Assembly (NCBI RefSeq): GCF_002849655.1
Contig: NZ_PDNW01000022.1
Coordinates: forward strand, 1-60,228
Source: Pollutimonas subterranea
GTDB taxonomy: Bacteria; Pseudomonadota; Gammaproteobacteria; Burkholderiales; Burkholderiaceae_B
Direction: 5' to 3'
Length of the DNA stretch: 60,228 nucleotides
Shown: piece by piece, positions 9,804 through 12,325 of the stretch
Layout: each line of letters begins with the position of its first letter
How positions within the stretch are numbered: position 1 is the first letter of the stretch
Position numbers and translations under genes: made by a program
The notes under the pieces: model-generated
What the model saw: only the letters and a program-made list of their open reading frames with translations
What the model was told of the DNA's origin: nothing
Databases searched by the model: none

Positions 9804-9874
9804 TTTTCACTAATTGTGAGAACGCATTTTCGTTAATTATGAGAATTTTTCAACAATTGTGAGAACCGACAACA
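9804..9874. repeat. Transposon end with three subterminal repeats (likely TnsB sites)
   Basis: Three near-contiguous direct repeats, at about 9804-9823, 9827-9845 and 9847-9866, share TTTTC-N2-YAATTRTGAGAA. Read from gyrB on the minus strand the terminus is TGTTGTCGGTTCTCAC, so the end is TGT at 9874 or at 9871. Tn7-like ends start with TGT and carry multiple ~20-bp TnsB sites. The adjacent five bases outside are TTTGA (if 9874) or GATGT (if 9871). Confidence 0.85.
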
Positions 9875-12325
9875 TCAAACATCAATATTGCTGGCCTGCA
9901 GCGCATGTTCCTCGATGAACGCCCTGCGCGGTTCGACGTGGTCGCCCATGAGCGTCGTAAATATCTCGTCGGCGGCAATGGCGTCTTCCACCTGCACGCG
10001 CAGCAAGCGACGCACCTTGGGATCCATCGTGGTTTCCCATAGCTGGCTGGGATTCATTTCGCCCAGGCCCTTGTAACGCTGCTTGCTGATGCTGCGGTCG
10101 GCCTCGCCGCGCAACCACTGCATGGCTTCACGGAAATCGGAGATATACTTTTCGCGACGCTTATCGCCTTCGCCACGCGCCACCAGCGCGCCTGTGCCCA
10201 TCAGGCCAAGGAAAGTCTTGGCCGCCTTGGAAAGAATGGCATAGTCGGCGCCGCGGACAAACGTACGATCAAAAATGCTGACGCGCACATTGCCGTGATG
10301 CATGCGGTTGACGATAAGGCGCCAGGAGTCGCCCTCTTCGTTCTCGTCCACGGTAACCTTCACGCCGTTCGGAACGGAAGGATCGTCGATAGCGTCCTGC
10401 AGGCGCTGGGCCGAGGCCGCTGCCTGTTCGGCATCATCAAGGTTGATTTCCACGCCTTCGGCCATGGCCGACAGCGAGGCCATGTCGATGTGCTTGGTGA
10501 GACGGCTGATGACGCCATCGGCCATGATGTACTGGCGGGCCAATTCGGTCAGCGCATCGCCGGAGATCGGGTCGGCGCCATCCCTGGGGATCAGCACCGC
10601 GTCTTTCATGGCCACCTGCAGCATGAACTGGGCTTCTTCCGCATCGTCTTTCAGGTAGCGCTCTTCACGGCCGACCTTGACCTTGTACAGTGGCGGCTGG
10701 GCAATATAGATATGACCGCGGTCGACCAGTTCGGGCATCTGGCGATACAAGAGCGTCAGCAATAGCGTGCGAATGTGCGCGCCATCGACGTCGGCATCGG
10801 TCATGATGATGATGCGGTGATAGCGGAGCTTGTCGATATTGAAGTCCGGGCCAATGCTGGTGCCCAGCGCGGTGATCAACGTGGTGATCTGCTCGCTGGT
10901 AATCAGGCGATCGAAGCGTGCCTTTTCTACGTTAAGCACCTTGCCGCGCAAGGGCAGGATGGCCTGGAACTTGCGGTCACGGCCTTGCTTGGCCGAACCG
11001 CCTGCGGAGTCACCCTCGACAATATAGATTTCGCACAGAGCCGGGTCTTTTTCCTGGCAGTCGGCCAGCTTGCCGGGCAAGCCGGCGCCTTCCAGCACGC
11101 TTTTGCGCCGAGTCATCTCGCGGGCCTTGCGGGCCGCATCGCGGGCGCGAGCCGCATCGATAATCTTGTTGCACAAGGCCTTGGCGTCGGTGGGGTTCTC
11201 GAGCAGCCACGTTTCCAGCGTACGGGCCACGGCCTCTTCGACCGCGGGGCGCACTTCGCTGGACACCAGCTTGTCTTTGGTCTGGCTGCTGAACTTGGGA
11301 TCGGGCACCTTCACTGACAATACGCAGGCCAGGCCTTCGCGCATGTCGTCGCCAGTGGTATCGACCTTGGCCTTCTTGGCCAGGTCGTTATCGGCAATGT
11401 ACTTGTTCAGGATACGCGTCATAGCAGCGCGCAAGCCTGTCAGGTGCGAGCCACCGTCACGCTGGGGAATATTATTGGTGAAGCACAGGACGGTTTCTGT
11501 GTAACTGTCGTTCCATTGCATGGCCACCTCCACGCCCACGGTGGTCTCACCAACCGTCGACTCGGTACTTACCGAGAACACGTTAGGATGCAGCACTGTT
11601 TTTGTACGATTGATGTACTCGACAAAGCCTTTTACGCCGCCCAGGAAAGCGAAGTTTTCTTCTTTGCCGTTGCGCTCGTCAATAAGGCGGATTTTCACGC
11701 CATTGTTGAGGAAGGATAATTCGCGCAGGCGCTTGGCAAGGATTTCGTAATGGTATTCAATGTTCTCGAAGATCTGGGTGTCGGCCAGGAACTGTACCCG
11801 CGTGCCCTTTTGATCGGTCTTGCCTGTAAGCTTCAACGGCTCGACCCGAGCGCCGCGGTTGAACTCCATTTCGTGCATTTCGCCATTGCGCGCAATGCTC
11901 AGGCGCAGCCACTCGGACAAGGCATTCACGCACGATACGCCCACACCATGCAGCCCGCCCGACACCTTATACGAGTTGTGATCGAACTTGCCCCCGGCAT
12001 GCAGCTCGGTCATGACAATTTCGGCGGCACTGCGTTGGAACTCGTCGCCCTTATGAATGTCGGTCGGGATGCCGCGCCCATTGTCGGAGACTGAAATGCT
12101 GTTGTCGGCGTGTATGGTGACGACAATGTCATCGCAATGACCGGCCAGCGCTTCATCGATGGCGTTGTCGACGACTTCGAACACCATGTGGTGCAGTCCG
12201 GTTCCGTCGGAGGTGTCGCCAATATACATGCCCGGACGCTTGCGAACTGCTTCGAGCCCCTTGAGCATTTTGATCGAGTCGGCGCCGTATCCGTCAACGG
12301 CGGCATTCATTGGTAGATCTGACAT
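9875..12325 (-). CDS. gyrB: DNA gyrase subunit B (816 aa)
   Basis: It is the ATPase subunit of the type II topoisomerase that introduces negative supercoils. The GHKL ATPase part ([28 protein letters not shown]) lies in the first 220 residues. The Toprim motif follows: [20 protein letters not shown], with [11 protein letters not shown] and the acidic DADVDGAH. The C-terminus [17 protein letters not shown] is the usual one, so the coding sequence is intact although the transposon starts right after the TGA. It is third in the leftward dnaA-dnaN-gyrB cluster. Quinolone-region residues look unaltered. Confidence 0.98.

Follow-up and report, generated by a model that had tools for sequence, protein, structure and literature searches.

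A Tn7-like element that probably homes to the 3′ end of gyrB, with a terminator-like hairpin in its right end

INTRODUCTION

How can a transposon take a harmless seat directly behind an essential gene? The question is raised by contig NZ_PDNW01000022.1 of Pollutimonas subterranea (assembly GCF_002849655.1), on which a Tn7-like element ends within a few base pairs of the gyrB stop codon. The stretch analysed, referred to here as the window, is the whole of this contig (C14), 60,228 bp of a 4.54-Mb genome in 68 contigs. The best explanation, which we hold with high confidence, is a Tn7-like element that homes to the 3′ end of gyrB via TnsD and has a terminator-bearing right end. Its location, orientation, terminal repeats, target duplications, gene order, terminator enrichment and tandem junctions can be read from the DNA. 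The suggested answer to the question is that the element brings a new terminator with it.

THE ELEMENT AND ITS BOUNDARY AT gyrB

The host target gene, gyrB, lies on the minus strand at 9875..12325 (stop codon TGA at 9877-9875; Pfam DNA_gyraseB, GyrB_insert and DNA_gyraseB_C) and shares that strand, from 9875 upward, with dnaN and dnaA. The tns genes are all on the gyrB strand and point away from gyrB, tnsA being the closest; the tnsA-side end faces gyrB, as the original prediction, made from this sequence, had stated. It had also described a set of TnsABC and two TniQ proteins, and this holds by Pfam for TnsA, TnsC and both TniQ proteins and by place and homology for tnsB. In order from gyrB, and all on the minus strand, these are tnsA (8021..8728), a TnsA-type endonuclease (PF08722, 40.7 bits, cut-off 26.5); the putative tnsB transposase gene (6085..8058); the AAA ATPase gene tnsC/tniB (5147..6085; PF05621, 117.8 bits, and AAA_22); a first TniQ protein of 484 amino acids (aa) (3696..5150; PF06527); and a second, TnsD-like target selector of 628 aa (1862..3748; PF06527 and PF12728, HTH_17; aligned in the profile A1 described below). 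PF06527 is above its cut-off in both TniQ proteins. We propose the 628-aa protein as the reader of gyrB, and the 484-aa protein is perhaps a second targeting route. The tnsB product had no Pfam match and weak NCBIfam matches to IS481/IS21, and was named from its position and homology: it shares 54% and 41% identity with the products of the second tns gene in Advenella elements and matches proteins annotated 'Mu transposase C-terminal domain', while all matches in a plasmid search stayed below 60% identity.

The right end (9803..9871, minus strand) comprises three TnsB-type sites at intervals of 20-23 bp and the terminus TGTCGGTTCTC..., and it has its terminal repeat in common with a left end on another contig of the genome, C27 (locus L011). 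The three sites (TTCTCAYAATTNNNGAAAAA, with at most 3 mismatches) lie at 9803-9865 in a single orientation; the shuffled mean is 0.28, and three sites were reached in 1 of 100 shuffles. Read 3′ of the stop, the end of gyrB runs TTTGATGT/TGTCGGTTCTCACAATTGTTGAAAAA... (TTTGATGT/TGTCGGTTCTCACAATTGTTGAAAAATTCTCATAATTAACG...). With at most 3 mismatches, the right-end pattern occurs three times in the genome, once at gyrB and twice on C27.

On C27 a left-end array ends ...GAGAACCGACA (...TATGAGAACCGACA) at 6830 and is followed by GATGT (L011:6831-6835). This left terminus and TGTCGGTTCTCA are exact complements, so the element at gyrB starts with the second TGT (9871), and the target duplication is GATGT (9872..9876, minus strand), made up of the final two stop-codon bases and TGT. 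The original prediction of a Tn7-like insertion at the end of gyrB is borne out, but the element does not abut the stop codon: 3 bp of target (TGT) lie between. The first TGT, which touches the TGA, was ruled out as the terminus by the C27 left end and the GATGT duplication. Of the two duplications that had been expected, TTTGA or GATGT, it is the latter that is present on both C14 and C27.

A second right end, TGTAGGTTCTCACAG, starts at L011:6836, directly after GATGT, and the second C27 element (L011:6836-12974) has a degenerate left end that ends in GCA at 12974, again followed by GATGT. An arrangement gyrB-GATGT-[E1]-GATGT-[E2]-GATGT would account for both contigs. It weighs against this arrangement that C14 and C27 are not joined in the assembly, the link being the terminal repeat and the duplication. 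Since the window is an entire contig, the left end of the element lies outside it; and since none of the 14-base words of window positions 1-130 occurs on C27, the C14-C27 link is counted as inferred. C27 has no tns match. It carries a third left-end-like terminus (L011:2681-2707, ACCTGTCGGTTCTCACAATT, minus strand), followed by GGTAT, for which no right end was matched.

The genes beyond the element are inverted between G202 and C27: a block of what we take to be TctC-type receptor, enolase-type and LysR genes lies beyond the gyrB array in both G202 (L050:14248-17086) and C27 (L011:13108-15951), 84% identical and in opposite orientation. By its own terms, the original prediction would have been refuted if relatives without a transposon carried the same sequence after gyrB; none of the four genus relatives compared does so, their flanks differing from that of the window and from one another.

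ENDS, DUPLICATIONS AND INSERTION SITES ACROSS RELATIVES

Twenty gyrB elements (G065 and G421 were left out) were examined for a left end that has a matching terminal repeat and is followed by the 5 bp found before the right end. Half of them have both such a left end and an exact duplication of these 5 bp, with element sizes of 12.8-38.2 kb: G085 (GAGCG), G146 (GCACA), G157 (GTCAA), G537 (GATGT), G513 (TAAGC), G388 (TGCTT), G643 (TCGAA), G315 (GATGT), G290 (ATTTT) and G633 (GAGTC). It speaks against the explanation given above that the other 10 of the 20 yielded no exact duplication in the DNA taken; in two, G423 and G598, the left end meets a nearly identical second right end without one. The right terminus, as placed, lies 2-12 bp past the gyrB stop, and the right end comes first in every gyrB-side set examined. 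Tandem junctions have the order left end, 5 bp, second right end.

One genus group provides a filled and an empty site. The DNA after the left end in G513 aligns with the gyrB flank of G454, agreeing at 79 of 100 aligned positions (score 34; the highest of 500 shuffles was 15.5), whereas the DNA right after gyrB in G513 does not align with that flank (score 3). It is important to note that the flank in this pair itself resembles an older transposon end.

THE TERMINATOR IN THE RIGHT END

Just inside the right end of the window element (9741..9782, minus strand) lies an intrinsic terminator-like hairpin of -30.5 kcal/mol, followed by a T tract and oriented to stop gyrB transcripts. Hairpin plus T tract was scored in the first 200 bp after gyrB, on the gyrB sense strand, in 21 flanks (20 genomes and the window). 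Seventeen of the 21 right ends were terminator-like, the best hairpins lying 65-167 bp past the stop, compared with 11 of 84 control windows of the same sequences (2, 5, 2 and 2 of 21 at 400, 800, 1200 and 1600 bp) and 12 of 105 dinucleotide shuffles. Outside the 21, G065 and G421 have one terminator each. In the delimited elements the hairpin is within transposon DNA. The insertions fall before gyrB's own terminator, and the simplest reading of these sequences is that they part gyrB from it and that the right end supplies a replacement terminator, often a bidirectional one, and it appears to be built to replace the terminator of the host gene.

Several results tell against this. Four of the 21 right ends (G293, G315, G423 and G466) and the flank of G1062, a gyrB locus outside the class, had no terminator by the criteria used; 13 of the 21 flanks are terminator-like on the opposite strand too, so the right end may simply insulate the element; and a terminator occurs in the 200 bp after the left end in 6 of 10 elements. 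Of those six, G537 and G513 resemble further transposon ends, and G085, G146, G157 and G388 resemble native terminators. As background, 18 of 29 relatives have a terminator within 200 bp of gyrB, as any gene end may.

The alternative that survives best is that right-end terminators are the ordinary insulation of any Tn7-like end, shielding the tns genes from outside transcription and bearing no particular relation to the host gene. Besides the 13 two-stranded flanks, it can draw on the relatives of these elements beside lysS and msrB (see below), in which all four flanks have a terminator. The last 200 bp of left ends, however, mostly lack one (terminator in 2 of 10), and as the insertion parts gyrB from its own terminator, a sense-strand stop serves gyrB. 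We judge plain insulation unlikely, while giving it a real share of the probability.

DISTRIBUTION OF THE gyrB-SIDE ELEMENTS

A TniQ search at family level found matches in 43 of 268 genomes. A tnsABC and large-selector set stands downstream of gyrB in at least nine of the 268 (the window genome, G052, G046, G085, G065, G125, G060, G146 and G157), 24 of the 43 TniQ carriers being outside the position check. In ten other carriers that were checked (G115, G094, G215, G200, G123, G048, G075, G145, G128 and G168), TniQ was never near gyrB; in three it was on the same contig far away, and in seven on other contigs. In one of these, G200, contigs C30 (L104) and C31 list identical TniQ coordinates and scores, perhaps through assembly duplication or a replicated element. 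G065 has a second tns set about 50 kb downstream.

A profile, A1, was built solely from ten selectors found downstream of gyrB, including both G065 proteins, and the positions of new matches were not used to choose them. Among 399 genomes of the order, 32 match at E ≤ 1e-15, and gyrB was located in all 31 besides the window genome. Sixteen of these have a match above 200 bits (18 such matches), and 14 of the 16 have such a match on the gyrB strand, 4-26 kb downstream of the gene; A1 favours the gyrB group, because it was built solely from gyrB-side proteins. The four matches above 200 bits that are not at gyrB belong to G293 (one, in addition to one at gyrB), G623 (two) and G542 (one). Where matches are weaker (15 genomes; no score above 155.5 bits; mostly the TniQ domain alone, the G343 match spanning 463 of 616 positions), none is seen near gyrB: six share a contig with gyrB but at a distance of 200 kb or more, and nine are on other contigs. 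Gene order is tnsA-B-C-(Q)-D throughout the clusters taken, with a split selector in G421. The window element is one of a broad, proposed gyrB-homing group. The check suggested with the original prediction, a search for the same TniQ pair beside gyrB in other genomes, showed relatives of the large TniQ/TnsD protein next to gyrB in many genera.

Searches for related loci gave two Advenella genomes and one weak Paenibacillus match with three close selectors, and no conserved stretch with ten diverse selectors. At class level, 5 of 369 genomes match at E ≤ 1e-20, two of them belonging to the window's order; outside the order there are partial matches and a 712-aa two-part match in G810, in which no gyrB was found in about 32 kb upstream of the tns genes. 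At phylum level, 9 of 299 genomes match. In one of these outside the class, G1062, a tns set with a partial selector match lies 8.6 kb downstream of gyrB, and after the gyrB stop there is a repeat of 20-bp spacing that agrees at 10 of 11 bases, a level reached by none of 200 shuffles; a second copy in this genome is not near gyrB. Two further phylum-level matches, G1056 and G1257, have no gyrB in the stretches taken.

These positions also bear on the possibility that gyrB is merely a permissive hot spot near the replication origin and that no selector reads it. Several end types (TTCTCA, CATAAnnTGAGAA, GGATCCC/TTTAGAT and GTTGGCCA) occur after gyrB in relatives, and in the gyrB-side stretch of G063 a defence system stands in 20 kb of sequence that yielded no tns homologue, both of which would suit a hot spot. 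Such a spot would not lead one to expect insertions 2-12 bp past the stop, always right end first, with exact duplications in 10 of 20, nor selectors above 200 bits by gyrB in 14 of 16 genomes against 0 of 15 with weaker matches, the profile having been made from gyrB-side proteins alone; we consider it very improbable.

OTHER ADDRESSES AND THE SELECTOR PROTEIN

In the four exceptions named above, the gene directly upstream of tnsA, at 0.6-0.8 kb and on the same strand, is lysS (G542 and G623) or msrB (G293 and G623). Pfam finds a class II (D, K and N) tRNA synthetase and an OB fold in the former, which we presume from its sequence to be lysS, and SelR in the latter. Such TnsABCD elements beside lysS and msrB were noted at L187:11532-13040 and L188:6616-7218, and in L188 TGTAGG overlaps the msrB stop codon. 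That related elements might sit at unrelated loci, which the original prediction had named as a point against itself, is thus true in a weak form, with four copies elsewhere, but these stand beside two conserved genes. In trees of 28 TnsD and 28 TnsB proteins (the second G065 set counted as gyrB), the four lysS/msrB elements group with the gyrB element G496, with support, so target specificity seems to have changed among relatives. We read these copies as specificity switching, not scatter.

For target reading by the C-terminal part of TnsD the identity evidence is weak and mixed, and specificity carried by that part alone is no more than a possibility. Over residues 30-200, identity is 39-43% in gyrB-msrB pairs and 42-43% in lysS-msrB pairs; beyond residue 200 it is down to 30-31% and 28-30%, respectively, while gyrB-lysS pairs hardly fall. 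Same-target pairs may fall toward the C-terminus as well (X623b-X542 from 68 to 55%, G315-G633 from 47 to 36%, G085-G513 from 42 to 34%) or stay steady (window-G052, 47, 49 and 48%).

The selectors are about 590-700 aa long. HTH_17/excisionase-like matches occur in some, an excisionase-type NCBIfam match in 3 of 4 relatives scanned and no NCBIfam match in the window selector; A1 matches TniQ/TnsD chains in PDB. AlphaFold, run on three sequences, gave a poor model of the window selector (mean predicted local distance difference test score, pLDDT, of 49), which also counts against a firm assignment. The model is best at about residues 380-580, where helix-turn-helix units seem to recur, and Foldseek returned phage Xis and BldC/MerR matches of high probability with no significant E-value, which agree with the HTH_17 and excisionase-type matches. 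This is a hint that the selector may hold a row of Xis/MerR-like helix-turn-helix modules.

ARRAYS AND REMNANTS AFTER gyrB

To look at gyrB flanks irrespective of tns genes, relatives were picked by gyrB similarity alone, giving 30 loci of 57 matching genomes, of which one is the window and 29 were scored. Repeats spaced 19-24 bp that agree at 9 or more of 11 bases occur in 12 of 29 flanks, against 148 of 2900 shuffles (5.1%) and 2 of 29 windows placed 300 bp farther along. TGTNG is present in the first 22 bp of 13 of 29 flanks, against 312 of 2900 shuffles, and both features in 9 of 29. Two of the 12 array flanks (L029 and L034) are in sequences where shuffles often score too.

In G201, gyrB is separated from a different right end by a 5.6-kb remnant that is flanked on either side by GGTGT. 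A 190-aa open reading frame (ORF) in it matches the C-terminal part of A1 (positions 428-606, 138 bits), best the second selector of G065. That all other array-like flanks are plain terminators is ruled out by this remnant, with its inverted partner 5.6 kb away and its selector C-terminus; the remaining array-like flanks could be solo ends or chance. Within the Advenella genus group, G048 also has a worn right-end-like array with a terminator after gyrB, and the 5.7 kb taken there gave no tns match. These sequences suggest that dead elements can leave gyrB its terminator.

A last alternative, that the window element was placed by the proteins of another element or that homologous recombination of similar ends produced the array, could appeal to the near-identical tandem ends without exact duplications in G423 and G598 and to the further C27 left end (~2707) followed by GGTAT, but the window element has a full tns set of its own, terminal repeats and GATGT on both sides, so we give this alternative hardly any weight.

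A PROPOSED MECHANISM AND ITS MEANING

In the proposed homing of the element to gyrB, the large TniQ/TnsD protein would bind the conserved 3′ end of gyrB, the recognised DNA presumably being the last gyrB codons, and would direct TnsAB via TnsC. Cut-and-paste insertion would then take place 2-12 bp past the stop, right end first, between the gyrB stop and gyrB's own terminator, and the intrinsic terminator of the right end, if it works as one, would replace the displaced terminator. Since it would take over, gyrB transcription would still be properly ended and the insertion tolerated. Because the coding end of gyrB stays intact, new elements could enter beside old ones to form tandem arrays, and decayed elements would leave a right end as the gyrB terminator. 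The window element may still be active.

A broader and more tentative idea casts the Tn7-like elements that home to gene ends as terminator-swapping transposons. Their TnsD family, which changes fast and has TniQ and a row of MerR/excisionase-like helix-turn-helix modules, might learn the 3′ ends of genes that are essential or conserved (gyrB, lysS and msrB), while the element's own terminator keeps the target gene undisturbed by the insertion and dead right ends repeatedly replace the gyrB terminator. We find this generalisation possible, at somewhat short of even chances.

Whatever its fate, gyrB, and more thinly lysS and msrB, would be added to the addresses read by Tn7-like elements. Related selectors with different gene-end targets would be a source for a TnsD recognition code, and perhaps for programmable insertion.

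RELATION TO KNOWN SYSTEMS

The closest model is Tn7 at its attachment site attTn7 beside glmS: the order TnsA, B, C, D is the same, a selector binds, or in the gyrB group would bind, the end of a conserved gene, and insertion occurs just past the stop. The tnsA side of Tn7 faces glmS, as the tnsA side of the gyrB element faces gyrB, and Tn7 is said to enter the glmS terminator, an observation reportedly made by Gay and co-workers in 1986. The differences are the target, the window element sitting at gyrB and not at glmS as canonical Tn7 does; the offset, 2-12 bp from the stop here and about 20 bp in Tn7; and the selectors, which in the gyrB group have the length and the occasional HTH_17/excisionase-like matches given above.

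The target gene parE is a paralogue of gyrB. In the parts of the descriptions available to us, a type I-F3 CRISPR-associated transposon (Tn7017/EasCAST) likewise uses TniQ/TnsD to direct insertion next to parE. Tn7017/EasCAST is also CRISPR-guided, whereas no cas gene was noticed among the six ORFs of the incomplete window element scanned with Pfam, no search having been aimed at cas genes. Dual tniQ-tnsD elements have two TniQ-type proteins, as the window element does (PMC10293859, as far as its text was available). Tn6022, with TniQ and TnsF, is described in the accessible text as inactivating comM, whereas the window element leaves gyrB intact; TnsF was not noticed in the window element, no search having been aimed at it.

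The accessible part of a 2024 review includes glmS, yhiN, comM, tRNA genes and parE among the attachment sites. The original prediction had thought that gyrB may be a little-described target family, and in keeping with this our search of open-licence literature, as far as its texts were available, turned up none in which gyrB is named as an attachment site of Tn7-like elements, a prior mention elsewhere being possible; 'gyrB' and 'gyrase' are absent from the main texts of PMC10293859 and PMC8649781. In Pseudomonas putida HB3267 a Tn7-like transposon is reported at B479_00025-B479_00140, in the portion of the source available, and by locus-tag numbering alone it may follow gyrB. New here are the insertions before gyrB's own terminator and the terminator-like hairpin in the right ends; the right-end terminator and the tandem arrays also go beyond the original prediction.

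CARGO, DEFENCE GENES AND OTHER FEATURES

Between the right end and tnsA, the window element encodes an 83-aa helix-turn-helix protein (8970..9221, minus strand; Pfam HTH_35, 31.5 bits, cut-off 25, and HTH_3), a possible repressor or regulator of the element. Its cargo side (1..1861) runs off the contig and holds a 212-aa ORF (462-1100) with no Pfam or PADLOC match. On C27, an 870-aa protein (L011:3940-6552) just inside the left end has SLFN_AlbA_2 and NB-ARC matches and a weak PADLOC match (PDC-S50, 6e-4), and is possibly a defence gene. The second C27 element (L011:6836-12974) carries genes for a TctC-type receptor, an iron alcohol dehydrogenase and an aldehyde dehydrogenase.

PADLOC was run on a selected set of 23 ORFs, two of them, the 212-aa ORF of the window and the 870-aa ORF of C27, from the window genome; five of the 23 had no match at the thresholds used. 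Model matches on the gyrB side include Hachiman HamAB (G063), Lamassu LmuAB (G388) and LmuB (G060), the elements of G060 and G063 being not fully delimited. There are also cyclases of the cyclic oligonucleotide-based antiphage signalling system (CBASS) with E1-E2 and a phospholipase (G085), a cytosine methylase with a helicase (G537), and type I restriction-modification proteins (G146, G643, G290, G633 and G315). Homing to gyrB would explain an origin-side hot spot with such defence genes (Hachiman, Lamassu, CBASS and restriction-modification). The Hachiman (HamAB) genes, at L063:14973-19231, lie just downstream of gyrB, beside a right-end-like GTTGGCCA repeat array.

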